NCBI RefSeq assembly: GCF_000241485.1 | Contig: NZ_JH584241.1 | Location: 2,871,788-2,935,787, forward strand | DNA from: Sphingomonas sp. PAMC 26605 | GTDB taxonomy: Bacteria > Pseudomonadota > Alphaproteobacteria > Sphingomonadales > Sphingomonadaceae | Direction: 5' to 3' | DNA length: 64,000 nt | Shown: one piece after another, positions 24,567-40,677 of the stretch | Layout of the letters: each line of letters starts with the position of its first letter | How positions within the stretch are numbered: the first letter of the stretch is position 1 | The notes under the pieces: generated by a model | Databases searched by the model: none | What the model was told of the DNA's origin: nothing | The model's input: only the letters and a program-made list of their open reading frames with translations | Translations under genes and position numbers: made by a program

Positions 24567-24897
24567 TCGCATCGCTGCACAGCGCCGTCCAGGGCTGCGC
24601 TCGCTCGAAGTCGATCGCCGCAGAGCAGGTCACGAGCGCGAGTGGCAGTATCGCACCCCCTTGGCGTCGTTCCCCGCTGCCATATTGGCGCATGTTGGTC
24701 TTTGTGCTCACCGAGGCGGAGATCGGCCTGCATGCGGAGGCGAGCTTATCGATTGCGCTCTTTCGCGGAGGGAGCGGCGACTGCATTGGCCGCGCAAAAA
24801 ATTCAGCCCTCGCAGAAAGATCCTTCCGCGGTGGCTTCCCGATCGCGTCGAGGCTGCCATAGTGGTGGCGAGAGATGCCAAGGACGGGGGAAGTCAC

Positions 24898-26313
24898 ATG
24901 AAGAATGCCGCAACGGTCGCCATCGGTCTGGCGACTCTGACGAGCCTGTTCGCGGCGCAACCCGGCGCGGCGCAAACGCTGCGGCCGGACCAGCAGGCGT
25001 TCCGTGCGCTCTACAAGGAAATGGTCGAGACCGACACCAGCATCACGACGGGCAGCTGCACCGCGCTTGCCGGCAAGGTCGCCGAACGTTTCAGGGCGGC
25101 AGGGTTTACCGACGCGCAGATCACGCCTTTCTCGGTCCCCGATCACCCCAAGGAGGGCGGGCTCGTCATCGTCTATCCGGGCAGCTCGAAGACGGTGAAG
25201 CCGATGTTGCTGCTCGGCCATATCGACGTGGTCGTGGCCAAGCGCGAGGATTGGGTGCGCGACCCATACACGCTGATCGAGGAAAACGGCTATTTCTACG
25301 GCCGCGGCACCGCCGACATGAAGGCGCTCGACGCGATCTGGGTCGACAGCCTGCTCCGCTTCAAGCAGCAGGGGTATCGCCCCAAGCGGACGATCAAGCT
25401 CGCGCTGACCTGTGGCGAGGAGACGAGCTGGGCGTTCAACGGCGCCTCCTGGCTCGCGGCGAACAAGCCCGATCTCATCGCCGCCGAATTCGCGCTCAAC
25501 GAGGGCGGCGGCGGGCGCAGCGACGGGCATGGCAAGCTCGTCATCTCGACGCTCCACGTCGGCGAGAAGACCGCGATCAATTACCGGATCGAGGCGACCA
25601 ATCCGGGCGGCCATAGCTCTGCACCGGTCAAGGAAAACGCGATCTACCAGCTGTCCGACGCCCTGGTCCGGCTGCGCGGCTATGATTTCCCCGTGATGAT
25701 GACCGACACGACCAAGGCGTATTTCCGCAATGCCGGCGCCGCGCGCGGCGATGCGATGGGGCGCGCGATGATCGCGCTCGCCGCCAACCCGGCCGATACC
25801 GCCGCGCTCGCGCTGGTCGATACCGACAAGAGCTATCACTCGATGCTGCGTACGACGTGCGTCGCGACGCTGCTCGACGGCGGCCATGCCAACAATGCGC
25901 TGCCGCAGCGCGCCGGCGCCAACATCAATTGCCGCATCTTCCCAGGCGTTTCGCCCGATGCAGTGCGCGACCAGCTCGCGAAGGTCGCCGCCGATCCCGC
26001 GCTTACGGTGAAGCAGACCGACAGTCGCGGGCCGGTCGCCAAGCCGGTGCCGCTCGACCCGAAGATCATCGGTCCGGCAAAGGCACTGCTCGCAAAATAT
26101 TACCCCGGCGTGCCGCTGAGCCCGATGATGTCGACCGGCGCGACCGACGGCATTTTCCTCGAGGCGATCGGCATTCCGGTCTACGGCCCGCCGGGCACCT
26201 ATGGCGACCCCGACGGGAATGGCACGCACGGTCTCAACGAGCGCGCGATCGTCAAGGCGGTCTATTCGGGCCGCGACTATCTGTTCGACCTGATCAAGGC
26301 CTATGCGGGCTGA
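24898..26313 (+). CDS. Secreted M20 family metallopeptidase
   Basis: 471 residues from the ATG at 24898 (ribosome site GGGGGAAG), with a signal peptide ending GAAQT. Zinc-site motifs of M20/M25/M40 peptidases are present: LLLGHIDVV with the His ligand, GRGTADMK with the bridging Asp, and CGEETSW with the Glu pair. TNPGGHSS marks the dimerisation-domain lid and GTHGLNER the final His ligand. It is a di- or tripeptidase or aminoacylase acting in the periplasm. It is followed 70 bases later by an M28 peptidase gene in the same direction. Confidence 0.93.
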   Translation: MKNAATVAIGLATLTSLFAAQPGAAQTLRPDQQAFRALYKEMVETDTSITTGSCTALAGKVAERFRAAGFTDAQITPFSVPDHPKEGGLVIVYPGSSKTVKPMLLLGHIDVVVAKREDWVRDPYTLIEENGYFYGRGTADMKALDAIWVDSLLRFKQQGYRPKRTIKLALTCGEETSWAFNGASWLAANKPDLIAAEFALNEGGGGRSDGHGKLVISTLHVGEKTAINYRIEATNPGGHSSAPVKENAIYQLSDALVRLRGYDFPVMMTDTTKAYFRNAGAARGDAMGRAMIALAANPADTAALALVDTDKSYHSMLRTTCVATLLDGGHANNALPQRAGANINCRIFPGVSPDAVRDQLAKVAADPALTVKQTDSRGPVAKPVPLDPKIIGPAKALLAKYYPGVPLSPMMSTGATDGIFLEAIGIPVYGPPGTYGDPDGNGTHGLNERAIVKAVYSGRDYLFDLIKAYAG

Positions 26314-26383: not shown

Positions 26384-28033
26384 ATGTTGAAGACGCTTTC
26401 GATCCTCGCGCTGCTCGCTTCCGCGACGCCGGCACTGGCGCAAGGCGTCGATACCGTCGTGATCACCAAGAGCGTGCAGGACCTGTCGTCGGACGCGTTC
26501 CAGGGCCGCGCGCCGGGCGGACCGGGCGAGGCGGCGACGATCGCCTATCTCGTCAAGCGTTTCGCGGCACTCGGGCTCGAGCCCGGTGCTGCAGACGGGA
26601 CATGGACGCAGACCGTCCCCCTGCTGCGGACCAAGCTCGGCGACACCACGCGCTTCGGCGTGGCGGTCGGCGGGCAGGAGCAACGCTGGACGCGGGGCGA
26701 ACAAGCCTATGTCTGGTCGCTGCAACCCAAGGACCGGGCGGTGATCGACGCGGCCCCGCTCGTCTTCGTCGGGTACGGCGTCAGCGCGCCCGAACGCGGC
26801 TGGGACGATTTCAAGGGCGTCGATCTCCACGGCAAGGTCGCCGTCGTGCTGGTCAACGATCCCGATTTCGAGGCCGTGCAGGGCGACGATGCGTTCGGCA
26901 AGTTCGGTGGCCGGACGATGACCTATTACGGACGCTGGACCTACAAGTTCGAGGAACTGGCGCGGCGTGGCGCGATCGGCGCGCTGATCGTCCACGATAC
27001 CGCCGGCGCAGGCTATGGCTGGAATGTCGTGGTCTCCGGCCAGGGCGAAGCGTACGACATCGCGCGGGCGCCGGACGCGATCACCAGCCTGCGGCTGCAG
27101 GGCTGGCTCCAGGGTGACGCCGCCACCGCCTTGTTCAAGAGCGCCGGGCTCGATCTTTCGGCGCTGCGTGCGGCCGCGCGGCAAAAGCGCTTCACCCCGG
27201 TGGCGCTGAAGGGTGCAAGCTTCTCCGCCGCGATCGCCGTCGAGCATAAGATCGTCGAAAGCCACAATGTGCTCGCGCGCATTCCGGGCACGGTCGCGCG
27301 CGACCAGACGGTTATGTTCGGCGCGCATTGGGACGCGTATGGCGTCGGTGCACCCGATGCGGAGGGCCAGACGATCCGGCGTGGCGCCAATGACGATGCG
27401 CTCGGCGTCGCGGCGCTGCTCGAGATCGCGCGGATCCTCAAGGCCGAGCCCGCGCCGCGCCGCACGATCGCCTTCGCGCTGTGGACCGCCGAGGAGCGCG
27501 GGCTGCTCGGGTCCGAATATTACGCGACGCATCCCGTCTATCCGCTCGAGAAGACCGCGGCCAACCTGACGATCGACATTCTGCAGACCGCGGGCAAGGC
27601 GAAGGATGCGATCCTGGTCGGCGTCGGGCAGGACAGCCTGCAGGACGACATGGCGCGCGTCGCCGCGACGCAGGGGCGCCGGGTGACCCCCGAGGGTTTG
27701 CCCGAGCGCGGGCTGTTCTACCGCGCCGATCATTTCAGCCTGGCGAAGCGCGGCGTTCCGGTGCTGCTGCAGATGGGGATCGCCGGCGCCTCCGACTTGG
27801 AGCAAGGCGGGGCCGCGGCGGGGCAGGCGTGGATCGATGCCTATACGGGCAAATGCTATCACCAGGCGTGCGACGCCTGGTCGCCCGACTGGAATCTTGC
27901 CGGCGCCAAGCAGGATATCGACCTGATGCTGACGATCGGTCGCGAGGTGGCGAATGCTTCGACCTGGCCGAGCTGGAAGGCGACTTCCGAATTCAAGGCG
28001 ATCCGCGACCAGAGCGCGGCGGCACGCAAATAG
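26384..28033 (+). CDS. Secreted M28 family aminopeptidase with PA domain
   Basis: 549 residues from the ATG at 26384 with a signal peptide ending ALAQG. A protease-associated insert lies between about residues 120 and 250. The M28 zinc site is visible: FGAHWDAYG (His), GANDDALG (bridging Asp), TAEERGLLGSEYY (catalytic Glu and Glu ligand), DILQTAG and ADHFSLAKRG (last His). It removes N-terminal residues from peptides in the periplasm. It is probably in one transcript with the M20 peptidase, implying peptide scavenging close to the TonB receptor at 28938. Confidence 0.93.
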   Translation: MLKTLSILALLASATPALAQGVDTVVITKSVQDLSSDAFQGRAPGGPGEAATIAYLVKRFAALGLEPGAADGTWTQTVPLLRTKLGDTTRFGVAVGGQEQRWTRGEQAYVWSLQPKDRAVIDAAPLVFVGYGVSAPERGWDDFKGVDLHGKVAVVLVNDPDFEAVQGDDAFGKFGGRTMTYYGRWTYKFEELARRGAIGALIVHDTAGAGYGWNVVVSGQGEAYDIARAPDAITSLRLQGWLQGDAATALFKSAGLDLSALRAAARQKRFTPVALKGASFSAAIAVEHKIVESHNVLARIPGTVARDQTVMFGAHWDAYGVGAPDAEGQTIRRGANDDALGVAALLEIARILKAEPAPRRTIAFALWTAEERGLLGSEYYATHPVYPLEKTAANLTIDILQTAGKAKDAILVGVGQDSLQDDMARVAATQGRRVTPEGLPERGLFYRADHFSLAKRGVPVLLQMGIAGASDLEQGGAAAGQAWIDAYTGKCYHQACDAWSPDWNLAGAKQDIDLMLTIGREVANASTWPSWKATSEFKAIRDQSAAARK

Positions 28034-28169: not shown

Positions 28170-28706
28170 TCAGCGGATGCGTTTCACATCGACCGCGCGG
28201 CCTGTGCCGATCTTTGCGATGTAATGGCCCAGCATCCCTGCCTTGATCGTAACCGAGTCACCCTTGCGGGGTTCGAAGGCAGAGCGATCGCTGATCGACT
28301 GCCAATCCCCGCCCTCGGCAAGGCTGAATGCCCATAATCCGTAGCCGGCTTGCCGGGCCGAGGTCACGGTACTGGTGATCTCGCGGACATCGGTGTCGGA
28401 TTCGGCGCGCGGGTCTTCCTTGCCGGTCCCGAACAGATTGAGATGCGGCAACGAGAACCCGAACAGCGAACGTTTGGCGCGCTGAACGGTCTCGCGATCG
28501 ACAATCCTGATCTCGCGGTGATCGCGCGCCGCAACAAGGGCCGCAGCGGTCCGGTCGTAACACGCCAATTGCTCCGCGCGCGGTTCCGTGCGGCAGGCGG
28601 CGACCGCCGTCACCAATTGGTCGCCTCGATTTTCAACGGTTTGGCCCGTCGCGGGTAGCGGCAGAAGGGCAACACACAGAACCGATCCTATGACGCGTTT
28701 GGGCAT
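28170..28706 (-). CDS. Hypothetical secreted protein
   Basis: 178 residues with a signal peptide (MPKRVIGSVLCVALLP to TGQT). The mature N-terminus contains ACRTEPRAEQLACYDRTAAAL, a two-cysteine helical motif recurring in sphingomonad and related secreted proteins. The C-terminal half is predicted beta-rich (ITSTVTSARQAGYGLWAFSL, then WQSISDRSAFEPRKGDSVTI). The function is unknown. It is divergent from the TonB receptor at 28938 with about 230 bases between them. Confidence 0.75.
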   Translation of the reverse strand: MPKRVIGSVLCVALLPLPATGQTVENRGDQLVTAVAACRTEPRAEQLACYDRTAAALVAARDHREIRIVDRETVQRAKRSLFGFSLPHLNLFGTGKEDPRAESDTDVREITSTVTSARQAGYGLWAFSLAEGGDWQSISDRSAFEPRKGDSVTIKAGMLGHYIAKIGTGRAVDVKRIR

Positions 28707-28937
28707 TGCTCACCTGTGCTCCGATGGTCGTTATGGTCGTTATACGCCGTCCTGACCGCTCGGCAATTCGGGCGCTCCCACACGATATGTATCTAAAACG
28801 TCACATGCGAAACGATATTGTCATGTCACTATATTTGACCGTTGCGGCCCCACCTCGGAATGCCATACCTTTTGCATAACGGCCGGCACCAGTCGGACCT
28901 GACGAACGGCGGCCATAACGGCCGAAATGGGGGTTTT

Positions 28938-31900
28938 ATGAAATCGAGAACGCGGTCCATTCTGCTTGGTTCTACCCTTTTTGCCAGCGCGGCGCTTGGG
29001 TCGACGTCGGCCTATGCGCAGACGGCACCCGCCACGCCGCCGGCCGATACAACGGCGCAACCAGCCCCCGCCGAAACGAGCGGCTCCGACATCGTCGTTA
29101 CCGGAACCCTTATCCGGAACCCGAACCTCGTCAGCTCGACACCGGTCGCGGTCATCGGTTCGAACGAACTCGCGCTGCGCCAGACCAATACGGCGGAGCA
29201 GGTCCTGCGCGATCTGCCGGGTGCCGTCGCGAGCATCGGCTCGGCGGTCAATAACGGCAATGGCGGCGCCTCCTATGCCGATCTTCGCGGCCTCGGCAAC
29301 TTCCGCAACGTCGTGCTGCTCGACGGCAACCGCATCACCCCGTCGAACACCGTCGGTCGCGTCGATCTCAACAATATCCCGCTCGCACTCGTCCAGCGCG
29401 TCGAGACGGTGACCGGTGGCGCGGCCACCACTTACGGTGCCGACGCGGTGTCGGGCGTCATCAACTTCATCACGCGTCAGGACTTCTCTGGCGTCGAGGC
29501 GACGGTGTCGAACCAGATCACCGAGCGCGGCGATGGCCACACCTATCGCGCCGATCTGACGATCGGCGCCAATTTCGACGACAGCCGCGGCAATGCGGTG
29601 CTGTCGGTCGGCTATCAGCATTCTGACCCCGTCTACCAGGGCGCACGCAACATCGCGGTCAACAACTATACCTCGACGAGTGGCGCCGCCGGCGGTTCGG
29701 GCACGACGGTACCGACGCGCTTTTCGGTCGCCGGGCTCGGCACGGGGGCTGCGCGCGTATCGGGCAATCGCCAGATCAACCCGACCACGGGCGCACTCCA
29801 GTCGCCGGTCGTGCCGTTCAACTTCAACCCGTACAACATCTTCCAGACGCCGTTCCAGCGCTACAACATCTACGGCGCGGCGCGGTATGACATCTCGGAT
29901 CATGTCGAAGTCTATACGCGCGGCATGTTCTCGAAGAACAAGGTGAGCACGATCATCGCGCCGTCGGGCAGCTTCGGTTCGTCGCTCGCGATCCCGTTCT
30001 CGAACCCGTACCTCCCGGCGGCGGCACGGCAGACCTTCTGCGACAACAACCCGACCTTCACCGCGGCCGGCGCGCAGGTCGCGCAGCTGACCGCGGCTCA
30101 GTGCGCCGCCGCGGCGACCGCGACGGCAACGACCGATCCGAACTTCCGCTACTTCACCGTCGCGACCAACCGCCGCACCACCGAAGTCGGCCCGCGTCTG
30201 TCCGATTACACCACGACGCTGTTCGATTATCGCGCGGGCGTGAAGATCGGCATCACCGACTCGATCAAGCTCGACATCAACGGGTCGTACGGCGAGTCGG
30301 AGAATGTCCAGGCGATCCAGAACTACGTGCTGACCTCGCGCCTTCGTGCGGCGGCGTTCGCCACCAACACCACGACCTGCCTTCCCAACGGCCCCAATGG
30401 TGCCGCGAGCATCACCGCAGGGAGCGGCTGCGTTCCGATCAACCTGTTCGGCCCCGAAGGATCGATCACGCCGGGTCAGGTGTCCTATCTGACCGCGAAC
30501 AGCACGTCGTCGAATCTCACCTCGCTCGCGCAGGCGCGCGCGCTGCTGACCGGCGACATCGGCGTGAGCTCGCCGCTCGCCGACAGCCCGATCGGCTTCG
30601 CGCTCGGCACCGAATATCGCAAATATACCGCATCGCAGTCGTCCGACACGCTCGCGCAGACGCCGGGCGAACTGGGTGGCGCAGGTGGTGCCGCGCCGAC
30701 CTTCTCGGGCGGATATCACGTGACCGAGGGCTATGGCGAATTGAACGTCCCGCTCGTCGCCGACAAGCCCTTCTTCAAGAGCCTGACGCTCGAAGGCGGT
30801 TTGCGTTACTCGGCGTACAAGGTCGATTCGGCGGCTTCGCGCGGGTACGATACGCTGACCTACAAGGGCGGCGCGACGTGGGAGCCGGTGCATGGCATCC
30901 GGATTCGCGGTAGCTATCAGCGTGCGGTCCGCGCCCCGAACATCAACGAGCTGTTCGCGCCGGTCACGACCGGCCTGACCAACCTGTCGTACGATGCGTG
31001 CGCCGGGGCTGCGCCGACGACGAACGCCAATCTGCGCGCGGTCTGCCTGGCACAGGGCGCTCCGGTATCCTCGATCGGCAGCATCCAGACCCCGACGGCG
31101 GCGCAGGCCAACTTCACCAGCGGGGGCAACATCACCTTGCGGCCGGAAAAGTCGGACTCGTACACGCTGGGTATCGTGTTCCAGCCGGACTATGTCCCCG
31201 GCCTGTCGATCTCGGTCGACTATTACAACATCTCGATCCGCGACGCGATTTCGCAGCTGACCGCCGGCGGCGCATACAATCTCTGCTTCGGTAACAGGGT
31301 GGGGGCGGGCATCACGTCCGCCAGCGCCGCCGATGTGAACTGCACCGTGATCCGCCGCAATCCAGCAACGGGCGCGCTCGACGGCGATCCCGCAACCACC
31401 CAGGGCCTCAACATCATTCCGAGCAACGACGGCAAGGTGTTGACCGATGGTATCGACCTCAGTGCCAACTATCGCCGCAACCTTGGCTTCGCCAAGCTGG
31501 ACCTGAGCTTCAACGGCAACTGGACGGCGCGTTCGCGGTTCCAGGCGAAGCCCGGATCGGACGTCCTGAACTGCGTCGGCTATTACGGCCAGAATTGCGG
31601 TTCGCCGGCTTCGGCGGGTCCGTCGTCGACCGCCGGATCGCTTCAGCCGCAGATCACCTGGAACCAGCGCACGACGCTGACCGTCAACCGCGTCGATTTC
31701 TCGGTGAACTGGCGGCACATCAGCTCGATGCGTGTCGAGCCTGGCGTCACGACCTTCACCGGCACGATCGCCACGGGCGCGCTGGCGGGTACGGCCGTCA
31801 ATTTCGGCAAGATCCCGTCGTACGATTATTTCGATCTGACAACGCGCTTCGCGATCGGCGATCATTTCGACCTGACCTTCACCGTGATGAACCTGTTCGA

Positions 31901-32024
31901 CCGCGATCCGCCGATCGTCGGTGGCACGGTCGGTTCGACCTCGTTCAACAGCGGCAACACCTATCCGTCGACCTACGACGCGCTGGGCCGTCGCTTCGCA
32001 GTGGGTGCCAGCGTCAGGTTCTGA
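28938..32024 (+). CDS. Large TonB-dependent receptor
   Basis: 1028 residues starting at the ATG at 28938; the frame is open for 32 codons upstream, but the signal peptide (MKSRTRSILLG to AYAQT) fixes the start. The plug contains GSDIVVTGTLIRNPNL, then RGLGNFRNVVLLDGNR and VETVTGGAATTYGADAVSGV, the layout of the large 'IroN/BtuB-like' receptors with a TGTR-type box. The barrel ends in RRFAVGASVRF. Extracellular loops contain several Cys pairs (near 31000 and 31340), suggesting disulfide-stabilised loops. M20, M28 and M3 peptidases nearby suggest peptide cargo, which is inference. Confidence 0.94.
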   Translation: MKSRTRSILLGSTLFASAALGSTSAYAQTAPATPPADTTAQPAPAETSGSDIVVTGTLIRNPNLVSSTPVAVIGSNELALRQTNTAEQVLRDLPGAVASIGSAVNNGNGGASYADLRGLGNFRNVVLLDGNRITPSNTVGRVDLNNIPLALVQRVETVTGGAATTYGADAVSGVINFITRQDFSGVEATVSNQITERGDGHTYRADLTIGANFDDSRGNAVLSVGYQHSDPVYQGARNIAVNNYTSTSGAAGGSGTTVPTRFSVAGLGTGAARVSGNRQINPTTGALQSPVVPFNFNPYNIFQTPFQRYNIYGAARYDISDHVEVYTRGMFSKNKVSTIIAPSGSFGSSLAIPFSNPYLPAAARQTFCDNNPTFTAAGAQVAQLTAAQCAAAATATATTDPNFRYFTVATNRRTTEVGPRLSDYTTTLFDYRAGVKIGITDSIKLDINGSYGESENVQAIQNYVLTSRLRAAAFATNTTTCLPNGPNGAASITAGSGCVPINLFGPEGSITPGQVSYLTANSTSSNLTSLAQARALLTGDIGVSSPLADSPIGFALGTEYRKYTASQSSDTLAQTPGELGGAGGAAPTFSGGYHVTEGYGELNVPLVADKPFFKSLTLEGGLRYSAYKVDSAASRGYDTLTYKGGATWEPVHGIRIRGSYQRAVRAPNINELFAPVTTGLTNLSYDACAGAAPTTNANLRAVCLAQGAPVSSIGSIQTPTAAQANFTSGGNITLRPEKSDSYTLGIVFQPDYVPGLSISVDYYNISIRDAISQLTAGGAYNLCFGNRVGAGITSASAADVNCTVIRRNPATGALDGDPATTQGLNIIPSNDGKVLTDGIDLSANYRRNLGFAKLDLSFNGNWTARSRFQAKPGSDVLNCVGYYGQNCGSPASAGPSSTAGSLQPQITWNQRTTLTVNRVDFSVNWRHISSMRVEPGVTTFTGTIATGALAGTAVNFGKIPSYDYFDLTTRFAIGDHFDLTFTVMNLFDRDPPIVGGTVGSTSFNSGNTYPSTYDALGRRFAVGASVRF

Positions 32025-32095: not shown

Positions 32096-33748
32096 CTAGC
32101 CGCCGCTGCCGAAGCGCTCGACCCATGGCGCGAGGATCGGCAGCACCGGGGCGAGCTGGTCGGCGTAGCGCCGCCATTGGCCGCCGCCATTGTAGAGCCC
32201 CTTGCGGACCTGCGTCTCGCTGGCGGTGCGAACGCCGCGCGTCCTCGCGGTGCTGGCAAAGCGTGTAAAATCGTCGGTCCAGGCAAGGCCGATGAACGCG
32301 GCCAGCGCGCGGACGGTCGGCGCGAAGTCGCCGACCAGTTGATCGTACCGCACGTCATGCGTCGCGATCGGCAGCATCTCGCGCGTCAGGTCCGTGAGCC
32401 GCATCAGCGAATCGTAATGCAGCGCCGTTTCCTCGAGGTCGCTGAACGCCCAGGCGCCTGCGCCGGGCGTGAAATTGACGCGGAAGCAGCTCAGCACGAC
32501 GTCGCGCGGATCGCGCCGCATCACGACGAAGCGCGCCGTCGGGAACAGCCGTGCGAGGATCGGCAGCTTGATTCCGTTGAACGGATTCATGTCGACCAGC
32601 ACCTTGCCGGCGACCGGGGCCCCGGCGAGCGCCGCAACGCGCCTCCAGTAGCGGGTGCGCAGATCGTGCAGCAGCGTGGAATCGAGCGCATCGAGATCGG
32701 GCATCGCGCCGTCGTTGGCGAGCAGCGCGGCGTCGATGTCGACCAGCGTGTCGCGTTCCTCGAGCGCGACGACGTCGGGTGCGCTCGCCAGCACATTCTC
32801 GATCAACGTCGTGCCCGAGCGCGGATAGCCGAGCAGGAAGACATGGGTCGCGGCGGCCCCCGCGACTGGCTCGGCGGGCGGCAGCGCCGCGACCGGTCCG
32901 GTGGCGGCGACCTGTGCGCGGATCGCGTCGATAAAGGCGCGATGCGACGGGCGCTCCGCCGTCGGCGCGAGCAGCGTGCGATACGCGTCGCGGAACGTGG
33001 CTTTTGCTGCCCGATACGCGGCGAATGCGTCGCTCGGACGATCGAGCCGGTCGAGCGCGTCGCCAAGCAGGGTGAGCGAGCGTGTCCGATCGTCGAGCGC
33101 GAGGCGGGTCTCGAGCAGCGGGCGCAACAGCGCTTCCGCGCGAGCACCATCGCGCGCCTCGACCGCGAGCAACGCCAGCGCAAAAACCGCCGATGGCTCG
33201 TGCGGGTTTAGCGCCAATGCTTGTTGCGCAAAGCCTTGCGCGGCGTCGGCGTCGCCGCGCCGCGCCGCTGCATCGCTCAGCTTGCCGAGCGCGGGCGACA
33301 GCGTCGGGTCGATCGCGAGCGCGCGCGCGTAGCTGGCGGTCGCCGCGGCATCGTCGCGTTGCGCGTCGAGCACATAGCCGCGCTCGAGCCACGCCGCAGC
33401 ATGGCGCGGTTCGGCGGCGACCACCTGGTCGAGCACGGTGAGCGCTTCGCCGAGAAACCCCTGCTTGCGCAGCACCGCGCCGATCGAGCCGAGGATCGCC
33501 ACGTCGCCGGGGCTGATCGCCAGCGCGCGGGCGAGCAGGGCGTGCGCCGCGGCGAATTCGCCCGCTTCCTCCTTACGCCATGCGGCGAGATTGAGCACCA
33601 ACGGGTCCGGCCGCCCGGCCGCGAGTTCGCGCTCCGCCAACTGCGCGGCCTGCGCTACGTCGCCCGCCGCAAGCGCTTGATCGACCTGCGATCTTTGCGA
33701 TCGTGGCGGGGTCGTCGGGCGGCGCTGCGGGATGTTTCGCTTTGACAT
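32096..33748 (-). CDS. TPR-sulfotransferase
   Basis: 550 residues. The ATG at 33748 with GGAG just upstream is preferred; a start 42 bases further upstream lacks a ribosome site. Residues about 25-250 are tetratricopeptide-like helical repeats (for example AWLERGYVLDAQRDDAAATA). The C-terminal half is a sulfotransferase domain: LLGYPRSGTTLIENVLAS is the PAPS 5'-phosphosulfate loop near residue 315, and FVVMRRDPRDVVLSCFRVNF the 3'-phosphate site. There is no signal peptide. Such proteins are often near TonB receptors in sphingomonads and Caulobacter relatives; the acceptor is unknown. Two further sulfotransferase-like genes and two oxygenases follow within 5 kb. Confidence 0.9.
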   Translation of the reverse strand: MSKRNIPQRRPTTPPRSQRSQVDQALAAGDVAQAAQLAERELAAGRPDPLVLNLAAWRKEEAGEFAAAHALLARALAISPGDVAILGSIGAVLRKQGFLGEALTVLDQVVAAEPRHAAAWLERGYVLDAQRDDAAATASYARALAIDPTLSPALGKLSDAAARRGDADAAQGFAQQALALNPHEPSAVFALALLAVEARDGARAEALLRPLLETRLALDDRTRSLTLLGDALDRLDRPSDAFAAYRAAKATFRDAYRTLLAPTAERPSHRAFIDAIRAQVAATGPVAALPPAEPVAGAAATHVFLLGYPRSGTTLIENVLASAPDVVALEERDTLVDIDAALLANDGAMPDLDALDSTLLHDLRTRYWRRVAALAGAPVAGKVLVDMNPFNGIKLPILARLFPTARFVVMRRDPRDVVLSCFRVNFTPGAGAWAFSDLEETALHYDSLMRLTDLTREMLPIATHDVRYDQLVGDFAPTVRALAAFIGLAWTDDFTRFASTARTRGVRTASETQVRKGLYNGGGQWRRYADQLAPVLPILAPWVERFGSGG

Positions 33749-33813
33749 TGCTCCGCCATAATCCTTATCGTTACGCAGGCACATCGCCATAATTGTTATG
33801 CTGGGAGGTCGTG

Positions 33814-34059
33814 ATGATCCTGCTCCTGTTGTCGCTGGCCGCGGCCGATCCGCAGACCCCGCCGTCCAGCACCACCAAGCCCGCTGCGAGCGCGCCCGAC
33901 AAGCCGGTGTGCAAGCAGTTCCCGATCACCGGCTCGCTGGTCGGCAGCAAGAAGATCTGCAAGACGCGGCGCGAATGGGATGACGAACGCGCCCAGCTCC
34001 GCGCGAGCGGCACGGGCTTCGATGCCTGTGCCAATGGCGGCGTCGGCGGAAAATGCTGA
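33814..34059 (+). CDS. Small secreted cysteine-containing protein
   Basis: 81 residues from the ATG at 33814 with GGGAGG 5 bases upstream. A short signal peptide (ILLLLSLAAA) is followed by a Pro/Thr/Ser linker and a C-terminal domain with four Cys, including CKQFPITGSLVGSKKICKTR and EWDD. The pattern C-x(3-4)-TGS-x(4-5)-KK-x-C-x-TR-x-EWD recurs, to my recollection, in small sphingomonad secreted proteins of unknown role. It lies divergent from the TPR-sulfotransferase and convergent with the next gene, with only four bases between the stops. Confidence 0.7.
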   Translation: MILLLLSLAAADPQTPPSSTTKPAASAPDKPVCKQFPITGSLVGSKKICKTRREWDDERAQLRASGTGFDACANGGVGGKC

Positions 34060-34063
34060 TCGG

Positions 34064-35125
34064 CTAGCCGACGAGCGGAGCGGGGGGGGCCATCGCGATG
34101 GCCCGGAGCGCGGCGATCGATTCGGCCCATATCGCAACCTTTTCGATCTCGTCGGCATGGAGGGTGTCGCCGCGCGCAAGCTCGGCGGCGCGATCGTCCG
34201 GCGTGAACGCCGCGCCCGATTTCGAATGGGTCGTGAAGGCGGGCCCCTGTGCGATCGCGTCCAGCGTCTCGGCGGCGAGCGGGTGCCTGGTCAGCGTGGC
34301 AAGGCGCGTCAGTGCTGCGGACGGATCCGCCATCAGCGTCGCGCTGTCGAGCGTCCGCACCCGCGTCGCGCCGAACTGATCGACCAGCCGCGCGAACAGA
34401 TGCTGTTGCGCGAGCCATCCGACCGCGGCGATCTGCAGATCGGTCAGGCCGAGATAGTCGCGCGGCGCGAAGCCGAGGTCGACCAGCCCGTCGTCGAGCA
34501 TCCCGATCAGCAACGTGCGCACCCACAACCGTCCGTCCAATCCCTTGCGCGCGATCGAGCCGAGATAGGTGCGCAGCGGCGCATAGAGCAGCACCGCGCA
34601 GGCATCGCCGCGCAGCGTCAGCAGGGCAGGGGCCAGCGCGTTGACCGCGGTCGACGGCTTGACGAATACCGCCTCGCCCGGCGCGAACGGGCGTGCCAGC
34701 AGCGTCAATACATCGTCGAGCACCCCCGCCATGTCGGGTCCTTTCCCGCCGCGGCGACGCCAGCCGATGATGTCGTTAAGGATCACCGGCTCCTTCAGCC
34801 CCATCGCCCAGCCGGGATGATCGAGCGCGCGGGCGAGCAGCGTCGAGCAGCAAAAGGCCGAATGGAAGAGGAAGTGGAGCGGCGCGGTCGGCGGGGCGGC
34901 GGCGATCGCATCGGCGCGGCGCACGACGAGCGGGGTCAGCCCGGCGGGCAGATAGGCGTCGGTCAGGAAGGTCGCGCGGCGATGGTCGGCGCGCGGCAGC
35001 GGGAGGAAATGCACCGCGTCGTGACCGGGATCGTAGCGATGCGCGAGCCAGGCGGGATCGCGCGCGACATCCGCGATCGATCTCGGCGTGCCCGATGGGC
35101 CGCTCGACAAGGGGGTCGGCGTCAT
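34064..35125 (-). CDS. Sulfotransferase-like P-loop protein (paralogue of 36462-37430)
   Basis: 353 residues from the ATG at 35125; the frame stays open far upstream across the opposite-strand oxygenase gene, but that part is a shadow. The nucleotide-binding loop is FHSAFCCSTLLARALD near residue 95, followed by LKEPVILNDI. This is a variant of the sulfotransferase PSB loop in which Cys-Cys/Gly-Ser-Thr replaces the usual PRSGTT. The C-terminal THSKSGAAF segment matches the THS/TYSK segment of the paralogue. The acceptor is unknown. It is divergent from the beta-hydroxylase gene with 63 bases between starts. Confidence 0.75.
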   Translation of the reverse strand: MTPTPLSSGPSGTPRSIADVARDPAWLAHRYDPGHDAVHFLPLPRADHRRATFLTDAYLPAGLTPLVVRRADAIAAAPPTAPLHFLFHSAFCCSTLLARALDHPGWAMGLKEPVILNDIIGWRRRGGKGPDMAGVLDDVLTLLARPFAPGEAVFVKPSTAVNALAPALLTLRGDACAVLLYAPLRTYLGSIARKGLDGRLWVRTLLIGMLDDGLVDLGFAPRDYLGLTDLQIAAVGWLAQQHLFARLVDQFGATRVRTLDSATLMADPSAALTRLATLTRHPLAAETLDAIAQGPAFTTHSKSGAAFTPDDRAAELARGDTLHADEIEKVAIWAESIAALRAIAMAPPAPLVG

Positions 35126-35188
35126 TGCGCCTGTTTGTGCAGCGGTGCGTGCGTTGTCTAGTCGGTTGCACGCCGATATGCAGTTGGC

Positions 35189-36472
35189 ATGGATGATCCC
35201 CAGATTCAGCGATTGCTCCAGTCGGCGGTGCAGGAGCGGCGCGCAGGCCGGGCCGAGGTTGCGGCAGGCCTGTTCCACGAGGTGCTCGCGAACGCCGGCG
35301 AGCATCCGCTGGCGCTGAATGCGTTGGGCATGCACGCGCTGGCGCTGGCCAGGCCAAGCGAGGCAGCCGGCTATTTCGAGCGCGCGATCGCCGCCGATCC
35401 GGGCGCGCCCGAATTGTGGATGAACCTTGCGCGCGCACGCCGCGAACAGCGTGACGATCCCGGCGAGGCGGCGGCGCTCGAGGGCGCGCTGGCGATCGAC
35501 CAGCGCCACTTCATGGCGCTGGTGCGGATGGCCGAACTGCTCGAGCGCCAGGGCGACGTCGCCAACGCTGCCGACCGCTGGGGCAACGTGCTCGCGATGG
35601 AGCCGTCGATCGAGGAGCGCAGCCCCGCGCTCGAACTGATGTTCGACCATGCGCGCGCTTTCGTGGCGGGGCAGCGCGCGGCGTTCGGGGCGACGATCGA
35701 TCGCGGCCTTGCCGCGGTGCGCGACGCGATCCCGGCGGGGGAGCGTCGCCGTGCCGATGCGTGCATCGACCATGCGCTCGGGCGGCGCGCGATCTACGCG
35801 AACGTCTGTGCCGGCATGCACTTCCCCTTCTTGCCCGCGGAGGAATATTTCGCGCGCGATCATTTCCCCTGGCTCGCCGAAATCGAAGCCAAGACCGACC
35901 TGATCCGCGCCGAGCTCGAGGCGATCCTGGCCGAGGATGCGGCGGCGATCCGTCCTTATGTCGCGATGCCGCCGGGCACACCGCCGAACAAATGGTCGGC
36001 GCTCGACCATTCGTTGCAATGGGGCGCGCTGCACCTGTGGAAGGACGGCGCGCGCGACGATGCAGCGTGCGCGCGCGCGCCGCGCACCGCGCAAGCCATC
36101 GCAGCGCTCCCCTTGTCGGATCTGCCGGGACGGACGCCGACGGTATTCTTCTCGCTGCTCCAGCCGGGCGCGCATCTGCCCGCGCATACGGGGGTGAGCA
36201 ACGTCCGTTCGATCGTCCATCTGCCGCTGATCGTGCCGCCGGGGTGCAGCTTCCGCGTCGGCGGGGAGACACGCGACTGGCGCGCGGGCGAGGCGTGGGT
36301 GTTCGACGACACGATCGAGCATGAAGCGTGGAACCGCTCGGATCAGCTGCGCGCGATCCTGATCTTCGACGTGTGGAACCCCTATATCACCGCGACCGAA
36401 CGCGACGTGCTGCGCCGCTTCTATGCGGTTGCCGCAGACGCGGGACACTCCGCGATCGGCGTCAGCGACTGA
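35189..36472 (+). CDS. TPR-aspartyl/asparaginyl beta-hydroxylase (2OG-Fe(II) dioxygenase)
   Basis: 427 residues. TPR-like helices fill about residues 1-140 (ALNALGMHALALARPSEAAG). The C-terminal domain is AspH-type (PF05118): HLPAHTGVSNVRSIVHLPL with iron-ligand His333, and FDDTIEHEAWN with His378. The region ILIFDVWNPYIT includes the 2-oxoglutarate side. The two-His spacing of 45 matches human AspH closely, and the third carboxylate ligand is missing as in that family. It should hydroxylate Asp or Asn in a protein or peptide, or a related small molecule. No signal peptide. It ends overlapping the next minus-strand gene by 11 bases. Confidence 0.92.
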   Translation: MDDPQIQRLLQSAVQERRAGRAEVAAGLFHEVLANAGEHPLALNALGMHALALARPSEAAGYFERAIAADPGAPELWMNLARARREQRDDPGEAAALEGALAIDQRHFMALVRMAELLERQGDVANAADRWGNVLAMEPSIEERSPALELMFDHARAFVAGQRAAFGATIDRGLAAVRDAIPAGERRRADACIDHALGRRAIYANVCAGMHFPFLPAEEYFARDHFPWLAEIEAKTDLIRAELEAILAEDAAAIRPYVAMPPGTPPNKWSALDHSLQWGALHLWKDGARDDAACARAPRTAQAIAALPLSDLPGRTPTVFFSLLQPGAHLPAHTGVSNVRSIVHLPLIVPPGCSFRVGGETRDWRAGEAWVFDDTIEHEAWNRSDQLRAILIFDVWNPYITATERDVLRRFYAVAADAGHSAIGVSD

Positions 36473-37430
36473 GCGCGGCGGCCGCCAGCGCGGCGTCGGG
36501 CGTCGCGGTCGACGCCCTGCGCTCGATCCAGGCCTGCGCCGCGTCGAGCTCGGGCGCGATCGCGGCGGCGACCTGTGCGGCGCGGTCGCGCCGCGCGGCA
36601 TTGTCGAACGCAACGCTCGGGTTCTTCGAATAGGTCGAGAAGAGCGGGCCGGCGACGACCGTTTCGAGGGCCTGCGGCGCAAGCGGCAGTCCCAGATGCG
36701 CGGCCGCTGCCTGCAAGCTCGGCAACGGCGCATCGAACAGCGTTTCGGCATCGAGCGTTCGCGCGTTGGGCAGTGCCGACAGCGCCGCGGTGAAGGCCTC
36801 GACCTGCGTCAGCCATAAGGCGGCACCGCGCTCGGCGTCGTTGAGCGCCGACCAGTCGCCGACATACGGCGCCAGCTGCGTCGTTACATGGCGCAGCCAG
36901 CCACGATGGTTCTCGTCGCGCAGGATCGCCAGCAGATAGGCGCGCAGTGGCAGATAGAGCAGGGTCGCCCGCATCTCGGGCTGCGCCACGGCGAGCTGCG
37001 GCAGCAGGAAATTGACCGGCACATTGGCCTTCACCAGCGTCGGCGCGTCGGCCCGATAGCGTTTCGCCAGCATCGCCAGCACCAGCGGGAGTCGAGCAGG
37101 GTCGCGCTGGATCGCGGTCTGTCGCAGCGCCAGCGGCTCTCGCAGCACGAGGCTGGCGCCAGGGTCATCGAGCGCGCGCGCCAGCAAGGTCGATCCGCAA
37201 TGCGCCATATGGAAGATCCACGCCGTCGGCGCAGCCGCGGGCACGCGCGGGATCACATCTGTGAGTGGCAGCAGCATCCGCTGCGTGGCCGCCGGGGAAA
37301 TCCGGTGATCGAGAAAGATCGAGCGGTGATAGGCGGCGCGATCCATCGGCATGAACACTGCCTGGTCGTGCTCGAAAGCCTGGAGGAGATGGTCGGGCGA
37401 GCCGAAGAGATCGTCGAAGGTCAAAGCCAC
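36462..37430 (-). CDS. Sulfotransferase-like P-loop protein (paralogue of 34064-35125)
   Basis: 322 residues. The motif FHMAHCGSTLLARALD near residue 70, followed by LREPLALRQ, is the counterpart of the loop in the gene at 34064. TYSKNPSVAFDNAARRDRAA near residue 265 matches the paralogue's THSKSGAAF segment. The two share overall layout but are strongly diverged. It flanks the AspH gene on the other side, so the oxygenase is bracketed by two related enzymes, and it is divergent from the TauD-type gene with 47 bases between. Confidence 0.75.
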   Translation of the reverse strand: MALTFDDLFGSPDHLLQAFEHDQAVFMPMDRAAYHRSIFLDHRISPAATQRMLLPLTDVIPRVPAAAPTAWIFHMAHCGSTLLARALDDPGASLVLREPLALRQTAIQRDPARLPLVLAMLAKRYRADAPTLVKANVPVNFLLPQLAVAQPEMRATLLYLPLRAYLLAILRDENHRGWLRHVTTQLAPYVGDWSALNDAERGAALWLTQVEAFTAALSALPNARTLDAETLFDAPLPSLQAAAAHLGLPLAPQALETVVAGPLFSTYSKNPSVAFDNAARRDRAAQVAAAIAPELDAAQAWIERRASTATPDAALAAAALSR

Positions 37431-37477
37431 GCTTCGGTGTAGCGCGACGGGGCGTTGACGGCTATCCCCGTCGAGTC

Positions 37478-38461
37478 ATGCCCGCTGTCCATTTGCCCGC
37501 TCTCCACCAACCGTACGTCGTGATCGAAGCGACGGTCGAAACGTCGATCCTCGAGCTCGACAAAGCGCAGCTTATCGAACTCTACAAGGCGCATGGCGCG
37601 CTGCTGTTTCGCGGCTTCGGCGTCGATGTCGAGCGCTTCGGCGCGTTCGCGAAACGGTTTTGCGCGACCTCGGTGGTCAACGAGAGCCCCGGGCGGCAAG
37701 CGGTCGATGCGGCGGCGAACGTCTTCACGGTAGATGGCGGGAATGGCGCATTCGCCTTGCACCCCGAACTGTCCCGCGAGCCGTGGAAACCCGATATCGC
37801 CTTTTTCGGTTGCCTGGTCGCGCCGCGATCGGGCGGGCGCACGACGATTTGCGATGGCGTCGCGCTGGCGCGCGAGATGCCGGAGCCGATAAGACGGGCG
37901 CTTGCGGGCCGACGCCTGCTCTATATCAAGCCGACATGGCCGGCGCTGCTCGATTTCTGGCTCGGCACGCCCGAACCGAGCGATGCGCAACTCGCATCGC
38001 CACCGCCGGACTGCCCCTATTATCTCCGGCGCTATCCCGATGCCGGAATCCTCCGCGTGTTCAGTCGGCCGGCGCTCCACACGCCGATGTTCAGCGCTGC
38101 GCCGGCGTTCGGCAACTTTCTGCTCTTTTCGCGCTTCAATCTCGGTCGTGCCGATCATCCGGTGCTCGATGACGGCCACGCGGTGCCGGATGCATGGCTG
38201 CAGGCGATCAAGGCGACCGGCGATCGTCTCAGCGCGGAGATCGAATGGGATCCGGGCGACCTGCTGATGCTCGACAATACGCGCTTTCTCCACGGGCGGA
38301 CCGCGATCGTCGATACCGCCGAACGCGTGATCCTCACCTATTTCGGCTATCTCGAATTCGCGATTCCCGATCCCGAGGAACCCGCGACGGCGATCTGGCG
38401 ACGCATCGATTTCGAGCCGCCGCTGCGCCCCGACCACCCGCGAGCGAAGCTGCCGGGCTGA
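37478..38461 (+). CDS. TauD/TfdA-family 2OG-Fe(II) dioxygenase
   Basis: 327 residues. The N-terminal GALLFRGFGVDVERFGAFAK is the standard TauD entry pattern. Iron ligands are read as His-x-Glu in ALHPELS near residue 92 (variant of HxD) and His in FLHGRTAI near residue 270, with R-V-I-L-T-Y-F-G-Y nearby for 2-oxoglutarate. It resembles the SyrP/clavaminate-synthase-like branch that hydroxylates amino acids or peptides more than taurine dioxygenases proper. Context with AspH and sulfotransferases points to tailoring chemistry, which is inference. Confidence 0.88.
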   Translation: MPAVHLPALHQPYVVIEATVETSILELDKAQLIELYKAHGALLFRGFGVDVERFGAFAKRFCATSVVNESPGRQAVDAAANVFTVDGGNGAFALHPELSREPWKPDIAFFGCLVAPRSGGRTTICDGVALAREMPEPIRRALAGRRLLYIKPTWPALLDFWLGTPEPSDAQLASPPPDCPYYLRRYPDAGILRVFSRPALHTPMFSAAPAFGNFLLFSRFNLGRADHPVLDDGHAVPDAWLQAIKATGDRLSAEIEWDPGDLLMLDNTRFLHGRTAIVDTAERVILTYFGYLEFAIPDPEEPATAIWRRIDFEPPLRPDHPRAKLPG

Positions 38462-38574
38462 CGTGCGCCGTACAGCCGGAAAACAGCGCGGCATGCTTGT
38501 GCAACGCGCCGCCACACCGCTAGAAAATGTACGCCAGGGGTAAGTTGGCGAAGCTCGCATGATTGGAGTTAAGG

Positions 38575-40677
38575 ATGAAGCGCCTCGTCTTCTTGCTGAC
38601 CTGCACGATCCTGTCCTCCACCGCGGCGCGGGCGGCGGACAACCCCTTCGCCAAGCCCAGCAGTCTGCCGTTCGAGGCGCCGCCCTTCGATCGCATCGCC
38701 GACGCGGACTATCAGCCGGGCTTCGATCAGGGCATGGCCGAGCAGATCGCGGAGATGCGCTCGATCGCCGACACGCCCGCAGCGCCGACCTTCGACAACA
38801 CGATCGCGGCGATGGAACGCTCGGGCGCGATGCTGCGGCGGGTGTCGGCGGCCTTCGGCGCGGTCAATCAGGCCGACACCAATCCGACGCGCCAGGCTGT
38901 GCAGAAGGCCGAGGCGACCAAGCTCGCCGCGCATACCGACGCGATCTATCTCGACCCGAAGCTCTTCGCGCGCGTGCACACCCTGTACCAGAACCGCGCG
39001 CGGCTCGGTCTCGATCCTGATCAGCTGCAGGCGCTGACGATCACGCATCAACGCTTCGTGCGCGCGGGCGCGCAACTCTCGGATGCCGACAAGGCGAAAT
39101 TGCGCGATCTGAACGCGCAGCTGTCGACGCTGCAGACCGCATTCGTGCAGAAATTGCTGATCGGCACCAAAGCGGGCGCGCTGGTGGTCGACGATCCCAA
39201 GCAGCTCGACGGTATCGGCGAAGGCGCGATCGCCGCGGCAGCGCAGGCGGCCAAGGCACGCGGGCTCGACGGCAAATGGGTGATACCGCTCCAGAATACC
39301 ACGCAGCAGCCGGCGCTCCAGTCGCTGTCCGATCGCGCGGTGCGCGAGGATCTGTTCGAGCGCGGCTGGACGCGCAGCGAGAAGGGCGACGCCAACGACA
39401 CGCGCGACATCGCCGCAACGATTGCGCAGCTGCGCGCGCAAAAGGCGTCGCTGCTCGGCTTCGCTGATTGGGCGAGCTACGTGCTCGCGGACCAGATGGC
39501 CAAGACGCCGCAGACCGCCGAGGCGTTCATGGCCAAGCTCATCCCCGCGACCGCCGCGCAGCAGCACCGCGAGGCGGCGGAAATCGATGCGGTGATCAAG
39601 CAGCAGGGCGGCGATTTCACCGTCAAGCCATGGGACTGGAATCATTACGCCGAGCAGGTTCGCAAGGCCAAGTTCGACCTCGATGAAAATGCAGTAAAGC
39701 CCTATTTCGAGCTCGACACGGTGCTCCAGAAGGGCGTGTTCTTCGCCGCCAACCAGCTCTACGGGCTGACCTTCAAGGAACGCCACGACATCCCGGTCTA
39801 CAATCCGGACGTCCGCGTGTTCGAAGTGTTCGACCGTGACGGCAAGCATCTGGCGCTCTGGTATTGCGATTATTTCAAGCGCGACAACAAGCAGGGTGGC
39901 GCCTGGAACAGCAGCTTCGTCAACCAATCCGGCCTGCTGGGCACGACCCCGGTGATCTACAATGTCGCCAATTTGCCCAAGCCCGCGCCGGGCCAGCCGG
40001 CGCTGATCAGCTTCGACGACGTGACGACGATGTTTCACGAATTCGGCCATGCGCTGCATGGTTTCTTCGCGCAGCTGGCGTACCCATCGCTCGGCGCCTC
40101 GGCGCGCGATTTCGTCGAGTTTCCGTCGCAGTTCAACGAGCATTGGGCGCTCGATCCCAAGGTGTTCGCCAATTACGCGGTCCACTACAAGACCGGCGCG
40201 CCGATGCCGCCGGTGCTGGTCGCCAAGATCAAGCAGGCGGCCAAGTTCAACCAGGGCTATGCGTTGGGCGAACTCGTCGCCGCGGCCGAGCTGGACATGC
40301 AATGGCACGCCTTGCCCGCCTCTGCTCCGAAGCAGGACGTCGACGCGTTCGAGGCGACCGCATTGGCGAAGACCGGGCTCGACGTGGCGCACGTGCCGCC
40401 GCGCTATCGCAGCAGCTATTTCCAGCATATCTGGTCGGGCGGGTATGCGGCGGGCTATTACGGCTATCTATGGACGCAGATGCTCGAGAACGACGCTTTT
40501 GCGTGGTTCACCGCGCATGGCGGGCTGACGCGCGCGAACGGCGATCGCTTCCGCGCGCTCGTCCTGTCGCGCGGGCACGCGCAGGATTACGACACGATCT
40601 TCCGCAGCTTTTACGGCAAGGACCCCGATATCGGCCCGATGTTGCAGGATCGCGGGTTGGCGCCACCGTCGAAGTGA
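38575..40677 (+). CDS. dcp: M3 family peptidyl-dipeptidase (Dcp-like), secreted
   Basis: 700 residues from the ATG at 38575 (GGAGTTAAGG upstream) with a signal peptide ending ARAAD. The zinc motif HEFGH is at 488-492 and the third ligand Glu lies in the FPSQFNEHW region. VPPRYRSSYFQHIWSGGYAAGYYGY is the conserved M3 substrate-binding stretch. It cleaves dipeptides from the C-termini of oligopeptides. With the M20 and M28 enzymes upstream it makes a periplasmic peptide-degradation set around the TonB receptor. Confidence 0.93.
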   Translation: MKRLVFLLTCTILSSTAARAADNPFAKPSSLPFEAPPFDRIADADYQPGFDQGMAEQIAEMRSIADTPAAPTFDNTIAAMERSGAMLRRVSAAFGAVNQADTNPTRQAVQKAEATKLAAHTDAIYLDPKLFARVHTLYQNRARLGLDPDQLQALTITHQRFVRAGAQLSDADKAKLRDLNAQLSTLQTAFVQKLLIGTKAGALVVDDPKQLDGIGEGAIAAAAQAAKARGLDGKWVIPLQNTTQQPALQSLSDRAVREDLFERGWTRSEKGDANDTRDIAATIAQLRAQKASLLGFADWASYVLADQMAKTPQTAEAFMAKLIPATAAQQHREAAEIDAVIKQQGGDFTVKPWDWNHYAEQVRKAKFDLDENAVKPYFELDTVLQKGVFFAANQLYGLTFKERHDIPVYNPDVRVFEVFDRDGKHLALWYCDYFKRDNKQGGAWNSSFVNQSGLLGTTPVIYNVANLPKPAPGQPALISFDDVTTMFHEFGHALHGFFAQLAYPSLGASARDFVEFPSQFNEHWALDPKVFANYAVHYKTGAPMPPVLVAKIKQAAKFNQGYALGELVAAAELDMQWHALPASAPKQDVDAFEATALAKTGLDVAHVPPRYRSSYFQHIWSGGYAAGYYGYLWTQMLENDAFAWFTAHGGLTRANGDRFRALVLSRGHAQDYDTIFRSFYGKDPDIGPMLQDRGLAPPSK

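Follow-up and report, generated by a model that had tools for sequence, protein, structure and literature searches.

A conserved set of sulfotransferase-like and oxygenase genes beside a TonB-dependent receptor in Sphingomonas, with a possible role in protein modification

Genes and proteins of the locus

In the stretch of the Sphingomonas sp. PAMC 26605 genome (4.8 Mb) considered here, a 64-kb segment of contig NZ_JH584241.1 referred to as the window, the gene of a TonB-dependent receptor adjoins genes for sulfotransferase-like proteins, 2-oxoglutarate (2OG) oxygenases and a small cysteine-containing (Cys) peptide. The recurrence of this set in many related bacteria points to a chemical modification of the receptor or of the peptide. 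The genes were identified by Pfam and NCBIfam scans of the window, and their coordinates are those of the whole 64-kb stretch; their names, order and place agree with the initial annotation (open reading frame (ORF) list, Pfam). Genomes and loci used for comparison carry G and L numbers, respectively. The receptor and the set are arranged as follows.

28935..32024, plus strand: TonB-dependent receptor, the hub of the locus; 1029 aa, Pfam plug and barrel domains, TonB-box region IVVTGTLIRNPN
32096..33790, minus strand: TPR-sulfotransferase (TPR-ST); PF13469 (E 1.4e-30) plus TPR
33793..34059, plus strand: small exported Cys peptide, a candidate substrate; 88-aa ORF with a possible ATG at 33817 and the core C-x5-TGSL-x6-C
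34064..35125, minus strand: ST1, sulfotransferase-like, with a predicted TPST fold and without Pfam match
35189..36472, plus strand: TPR-AspH, an aspartyl/asparaginyl beta-hydroxylase; PF05118 (E 8.6e-42) plus TPR
36462..37430, minus strand: ST2, a paralogue of ST1; GTG start, 3' end overlapping AspH by 11 bp, head-to-head with TauD
37478..38461, plus strand: TauD-type 2-oxoglutarate oxygenase; PF02668 (E 3.5e-31), HxE...H motif

Six genes of alternating strand separate the receptor from an M3 peptidase, and their directions form three head-to-head pairs (TPR-ST/Cys peptide, ST1/AspH and ST2/TauD), in each of which one sulfotransferase faces the peptide or an oxygenase. This alternation exceeds chance. 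Scans for Rfam families, promoters and terminators added nothing except a single promoter-like site ahead of the Cys-peptide gene.

The window AspH can be aligned to its human counterpart (5apa, E 7e-28) with both metal-binding His and the Arg in place. The residues H333, H378 and R388 are invariant in 23 sequences, and we take the two His to be the metal ligands and R388 the 2OG-binding Arg. The N-terminal TPR domain characteristic of the AspH type is present in the window protein (Pfam). The closest solved relatives of the catalytic part of TPR-ST are the tick and human protein-tyrosine sulfotransferases, and its binding loop for 3'-phosphoadenosine 5'-phosphosulfate (PAPS) contains the basic residue expected there (PRSGTT). 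From these relationships, sulfation of proteins by the TPST-type enzymes and hydroxylation of protein Asp or Asn by AspH would be the predicted activities. In the TauD-type protein, the HPE motif and the distal His complete the metal triad and are found in 10/10 sequences; its plasmid-borne relatives show less than 31% identity in the best 15 of 36 matches.

For ST1 and ST2, neither Pfam nor NCBIfam gave a match. They are paralogues with 35% identity (33% in the multiple alignment). An AlphaFold2 model of ST1, built on an alignment of 22 sequences, has a mean predicted local distance difference test score (pLDDT) of 90.5. Foldseek returned three matches below E 0.001 for it, namely tick TPST, a curacin-pathway sulfotransferase and human TPST1, and the seven top rows of VIA-align were human and tick TPST (Z 15.0-15.2 over 226-235 residues). 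A profile search of PDB sequences with ST1 gave no significant match. The modelled structure is that of a TPST-type sulfotransferase, which bears out the original label "sulfotransferase-like" for this protein. Within the ST1 family Glu111 and Lys155 do not vary and Ser189 hardly does; the regions around these residues align with the TPR-ST profile at a probability of 59%, and E111 and S189 may be equivalent to the conserved Glu and the 3'-phosphate-binding (3'-PB) Ser of sulfotransferases. The nearest ST1 relative found, in Sphingomonas glacialis, is 86% identical. ST1 is rare outside the family, occurring in 5/337 genomes of the class at E 1e-15 with the host genome counted, and no annotated relatives were found on plasmids. 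Distant ST2-like proteins (family f12) were seen outside Sphingomonadaceae at L169 (8724-9818) and L170 (8056-9105), the former in a cluster with AspH, TPR-ST and a receptor.

The small Cys protein is a real gene, as the initial annotation had supposed: a hidden Markov model (HMM) of the family finds it in 69/74 ST1 loci, with one to four copies per locus. Members have a hydrophobic N-terminus, Sec-like by eye, and the core in the window reads C-x5-TGSL-x6-C-x5-W; C32, G39, L41, C48 and W54 are invariant in 28 sequences. There is no Pfam match. The structural model, confident only for approximately residues 30-60 (overall pLDDT 72), shows two strands (30-36, 44-50) paired as a hairpin, each carrying a Cys and joined at the tip by the TGSL loop, and then a helix; the best Foldseek match of the model has E 1.8. 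The idea of an EGF-like AspH target between the two Cys was dropped, as no Asp or Asn is conserved there. The host genome encodes one further relative of the peptide, whose surroundings are of the housekeeping type, with genes that by eye resemble glyA, nrdR and rpsD. Another relative in such a setting, L081 7866-8189, lies approximately 3 kb from an M28 peptidase, and its neighbourhood is similar in several congeners.

Distribution of the set

A single scan of the genome collection with ST1 yielded 74 loci, all from Sphingomonadales where the record title is narrower than "Alphaproteobacteria" or "bacterium", and linkage was counted in the 61 that have at least 5 kb on both sides. AspH is present in all 61, the Cys peptide in 58 and a receptor of the window's class in 55, 54 of these at 1200 bits or more. 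The six loci lacking the receptor form one flank group, and each of their genomes encodes one receptor orthologue elsewhere (64-74% identical), any other listed receptor match there reaching at most 374 bits; at L039 the receptor is in fragments. Enzymes distributed without regard to one another or to TonB receptors, which the initial annotation had named as the outcome that would count against its proposal, are not observed. The co-occurrence for which it had proposed a survey holds for ST1, AspH and the receptor, but ST2 and TauD (each in 6/61) and TPR-ST of the window type are less constant: a close TPR-ST (HMM score of at least 300 bits) is found in 12/61 and a TPR-ST of whatever kind, at 80 bits or more, in 16/61.

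The arrangement is also largely kept. ST1 and AspH are head-to-head in 62/69 loci, and in 47/69 the Cys peptide lies on the AspH strand less than 400 bp from the AspH ORF. Among the seven other ST1/AspH pairs, a second AspH was picked at L012 and L032 and the ORFs are over-long at L062 and L067, so that true differences in orientation are those of L019, L033 and L053. By their flanking genes, 81 loci fall into 16 groups. A single ancestral site accounts for 53 of the 81, which means that the linkage is partly explained by vertical descent; ST1 and AspH are also together in five other flank groups that comprise at least two loci each. Clustering of the neighbours in 38 loci revealed no further family in more than seven, shadow frames aside. 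The neighbour families that were scanned, not all of which were identified, are site flanks (penicillin amidase, M23, ExoVII and two without match).

The genes that bracket the set in the window are the following.

24661-26313 (ORF): M20-like protein; NCBIfam PRK09133, a hypothetical-protein family, above cut-off; M20 and ArgE/DapE families below cut-off
26384-28033: "M28" peptidase; sub-threshold matches to peptidase models only, the M28 label being a family reading
28170..28706, minus strand: exported protein of 178 aa, encoded divergently from the receptor; contains a CYD motif
38563..40677, plus strand: M3 peptidase (Pfam)

The peptidases, which had been described as bracketing the cluster and counted as parts of the system, are real genes of the locus, but none is conserved with the set. 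Within 5 kb, M20 and M3 occur in 0/61 full ST1 loci, and M28 in 13/61, there only as a weak paralogue of approximately 140-190 bits. They are best regarded as site-specific neighbours: the M20 and M28 genes of the window recur at L099 as a flank of the site, and M3 was seen beside ST1 at one other place (L092). The 178-aa protein lies within 5 kb of ST1 in 27/61 full loci. At L178 and L083, which lack AspH, it still accompanies the receptor, and it is therefore a probable accessory of the receptor and not part of the enzyme set.

Profiles across 37 genomes of the genus (G000-G036) give a finer view of which members belong together. The genome searches were capped in the candidates they scored (13 per genome in most receptor searches), so that absence is not strict, and relatedness was ignored in the Fisher tests. 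Two cuts were set after the numbers had been seen: at least 50% identity for a receptor orthologue and E below 1e-165 for a strong AspH (the next value being 2e-117). A receptor orthologue is present in 20 of the 37 genomes, counting G007 (partial, at a contig end) and G032 (in two pieces). Strong AspH accompanies it in 18/20 vs 0/17 genomes without it (Fisher 1e-8), and ST1 in 13/20 vs 1/17. The two receptor genomes without strong AspH are G022, with receptor and ST1 (L092), and G027, with receptor and Cys peptide (L083) and a weaker AspH elsewhere (L177). The Cys peptide occurs near the locus in 11/13 genomes with ST1 and receptor vs 2/7 with receptor and no ST1 (Fisher 0.02); one of the two misses in the former group is G007, which is on short contigs. 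These profiles indicate that AspH and receptor form a tight pair, that the sulfotransferases are exchanged, and that the Cys peptide goes rather with ST1. In the receptor tree, the AspH-linked receptors (66 sequences) fall together, with L092 inside, L083 basal and nine AspH-free relatives outside.

Similar combinations are found well beyond the ST1 loci. The host genome contains 71 matches to the TonB-receptor plug, and the PF13469 proteins found in it, four of four, are TPR-STs beside a TonB receptor; the rough probability that all four would lie within 1 kb of a receptor by chance is 2e-5. Three of these, at L198, L199 and L200, are two-gene TPR-ST/receptor pairs on the same strand with gaps under approximately 160 bp. 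Elsewhere in the order, seven of the eight AspH loci fetched from other families have a receptor beside AspH, the eighth being on a 3.5-kb contig (the matches G037:C8, G053:C8 and G055:C81 were left out). In a sample of the phylum, at least 6/16 AspH loci outside the family have a receptor within approximately 5 kb (L151, at 20 bits only, L152, L153, L155, L156 and L165). The receptor HMM misses other receptor classes, for example one in L006, and this phylum count is accordingly a lower bound. The L006 locus holds a second TPR-AspH of the host (10004-11149; G000:C1:3005018-3006118); it is flanked by genes that by eye are pyrG-like on one side and small-heat-shock-like on the other, and this other TonB receptor is approximately 0.85 kb away.

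Fuller relatives of the set occur at L169, which comprises an ST2-like protein, AspH, TPR-ST, receptor and a TPR-fused 2OG-FeII_Oxy_5 protein (PF13759, TPR-Oxy5), and also at L152, L156 and L165. An Asticcacaulis plasmid carries receptor, sulfotransferase, AspH and TPR-ST consecutively. TPR-Oxy5 is present near AspH at L156 as well as L169, and lies directly beside TonB receptors at L190 (7881-9689), L195 (2682-4496) and L197 (2853-4706); of 20 receptors sampled from the receptor-search list, three have TPR-Oxy5 beside them and one a TPR-ST nearby. For eight TPR-STs hand-picked from 42 plasmid records, a receptor is annotated within 5 kb in five, an autotransporter in one and neither in two. 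On one such plasmid, of Enterobacter sp. 638, the TPR-ST is followed by a family 8 glycosyltransferase and the autotransporter (L212, 3663-9876). An outer-membrane protein is the commonest partner.

Candidate substrates and alternative readings

Together, the gene families, the predicted fold of ST1, the conservation and the linkage are compatible with a protein-modification module dedicated to the receptor, whose targets, modified prior to export, would be the receptor and, within Sphingomonadaceae, the Cys peptide as well. This is the reading we tentatively prefer, at somewhat less than an even chance of being right. TPR-AspH (with TauD in some lineages) and the sulfotransferases TPR-ST, ST1 and ST2 would work in the cytoplasm, the compartment of their cosubstrates 2-oxoglutarate and PAPS, on ribosomal products of their own locus, namely the neighbouring TonB receptor and the Cys-hairpin peptide. 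The unfolded substrate would be held by the TPR domains; AspH would hydroxylate Asp or Asn, and the targets of the sulfotransferases would be Tyr, Ser, Thr or the newly made hydroxyl. Once modified, the receptor would, by itself or together with the peptide, bind its ligand or become subject to regulation. No signal peptide is evident by eye in any enzyme of the set and, as the cosubstrates are cytoplasmic, modification before export would be the simplest route. The receptor ranks first as candidate substrate because it is common to most versions of the set, and the Cys peptide may be a second substrate, or a partner, where ST1 is present. Protein substrates are plausible since the closest solved relatives are human AspH and the protein-tyrosine sulfotransferases. 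The modification system envisaged in the initial annotation agrees with the linkage and with these protein-modifying relatives, its peptidase part excepted and its shared TPR scaffold being a further hypothesis.

Several observations weigh against a receptor-dedicated module. In the ST1/ST2 alignment, the PAPS loop lacks the Arg or Lys of the canonical PRSGTT, which TPR-ST keeps; the loop is [FY]C[CAL]S[TS] in ST1 (e.g., FCCST) and HCGST in ST2, and the activity of both is therefore doubtful. With 53/81 loci at a shared site and the AspH-linked receptors forming one clade, there are few independent events. A receptor was not found near AspH in 10/16 phylum loci (L154, L157-L164, L166) or near the AspH relatives L108, L109 and L111-L117, by an HMM that misses other classes. 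The sole PF13469 protein of the congener G018 is separated from a receptor by approximately 4 kb that contain other genes. Receptor and AspH occur without ST1 or Cys peptide at the locus in five genomes (L099, L100, L171-L173), four of which have another TPR-ST beside AspH and the fifth an M1 peptidase, and Cys peptides also stand alone in housekeeping surroundings. No modification site on a substrate was identified.

Alternatively, the Cys peptide might be the only substrate and, hydroxylated, sulfated and exported, serve as a metallophore, signal or toxin-like product which the receptor imports or senses, as MbnT does methanobactin. Such a product could be a RiPP, a class in which a leader is cut off the modified core of a precursor. 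The presence of the peptide in 58/61 ST1 loci, in one to four copies and mostly beside AspH on its strand, and its association with ST1 near the locus in the genus profiles speak for such a product. Two published arrangements are in line with it: excerpts of PMC3621798 describe methanobactin operons as having a precursor, frequently together with a TonB-dependent transporter, and a sulfotransferase in two cases, and in part of PMC10040529 sulfotransferase and aspartyl beta-hydroxylase entries are numbered beside lasso-peptide entries. Set against this are the five receptor and AspH loci in which no Cys peptide was found, four of them with a TPR-ST, the AspH-receptor pairs of other families, likewise without one found, and the bare TPR-ST/receptor pairs of the host genome, around which no peptide search was made. 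Moreover, the N-terminus of the peptide looks Sec-like by eye, none of its conserved residues is Asp, Asn or Tyr, and relatives of it occur away from the cluster. We consider this explanation unlikely, while giving it perhaps a quarter of the weight.

The enzymes of a receptor's neighbourhood often serve the metabolism of its ligand, and those of the set might likewise make or alter a small molecule taken up by the receptor, such as a hydroxylated, sulfated amino acid, lipid or siderophore. The weak PDB matches of TauD, to TauD/TfdA proteins, a clavaminate synthase-like protein and the alkylsulfatase AtsK, would suit this, as would the sub-threshold NCBIfam resemblance of AspH to the lipid hydroxylases OlsC and LpxO. 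However, the closest structures and sequences of AspH, TPR-ST and ST1 are protein-modifying, the TPR fusions of AspH, TPR-ST and TPR-Oxy5 fit protein substrates, and the neighbour clustering offers no further family that recurs widely. Such a pathway is accordingly rated improbable.

A more specific version of receptor modification concerns the TonB box. The receptors would be hydroxylated and sulfated at or near this element, and the Cys peptide would be a disulfide-stapled hairpin that shares its motif and tunes the receptor, a proposal we consider very unlikely; that the peptide motif, TG[ST]L[IV] plus a basic residue, binds TonB or the modifying enzymes seems equally improbable. This mimicry was conceived after the data had been seen. 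TG[ST]L[IV] followed by a basic residue is found in many receptors and peptides. AspH-linked receptors have Leu59 and Asn62 in 66/66 and Asn64 in 64/66, vs Arg, Arg and Asp in 9/9 AspH-free relatives. Cluster peptides mostly have G[ST]L, others GSI, GSW or GSN, and at the divergent loci L086 and L089 both receptor and peptide have GSR. On the other side, the best 8-residue match falls at the TonB box in only 24/89 peptide/receptor pairs (rows without readable TonB box left out), mostly from Sphingobium and not including the window; the AspH-linked receptors are one clade, and the peptides outside the cluster have Leu, Arg and others.

That the genes merely share a vertically inherited ancestral Sphingomonadaceae site, among receptors as numerous as the 71 plugs of the host genome, is very unlikely even with 53/81 loci at that site, given that six flank groups of two or more loci each hold ST1 and AspH, that the receptor is retained where linkage is lost, and that the association recurs in other families, in other classes and on plasmids.

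Relation to described systems

Within the open-access literature searched, a receptor-linked set of this kind was not found described, in keeping with the statement of the initial annotation that no such system was known. To our knowledge, hydroxylation and sulfation of bacterial outer-membrane proteins have not been established. If receptors or the peptides that partner them are modified in this way, there would be an unseen layer to the specificity of a very large receptor family and to its regulation, and the TPR-AspH, TPR-sulfotransferase and TPR-2OG oxygenase families, here annotated by domain only, would gain substrates.

Among the cluster proteins scanned there is no MbnB-like Pfam match (MbnB being of DUF692; the rest of the genome was not searched), and the cluster does not class with the methanobactin operons. 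By analogy these operons are nevertheless the nearest described arrangement, alike in parts only, as far as the excerpts of PMC3621798 go. They share with the locus a small Cys-containing product (the precursor MbnA), a sulfotransferase (in two operons) and a TonB-dependent transporter (MbnT), whereas their sulfotransferase MbnS belongs to Pfam PF00685 and no AspH-type hydroxylase is named for them in these excerpts (PMC3621798). The peptide of the locus also differs from the methanobactin type in its Sec-like N-terminus.

A second analogy comes from the portion of PMC10040529 that includes Table 2, where the Pontixanthobacter/Allopontixanthobacter entries 1738-1748 comprise lasso B2, sulfotransferase, aspartyl beta-hydroxylase, sulfotransferase, PqqD and Asn synthase. 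These entries are a lead that such enzymes may tailor peptides, and the genes behind them may or may not be neighbours of one another or kin of those in the window cluster, in which Pfam recognised no lasso enzyme.

Human AspH has a TPR region and acts in the endoplasmic reticulum on EGF-like domains. The window AspH shares its combination of TPR and hydroxylase domain, with both metal His and the Arg kept, but is presumably cytoplasmic, having no evident signal by eye, and the cluster contains no Pfam match to an EGF domain. For the sulfotransferases, the closest described proteins are TPST1 and TPST2, by sequence in the case of TPR-ST and by predicted fold in that of ST1, and a bacterial protein-tyrosine sulfotransferase is known in RaxST. 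From all of these the set is distinguished by the TPR fusion of TPR-ST, the altered PAPS loop of ST1 and ST2, and the neighbouring TonB receptor.

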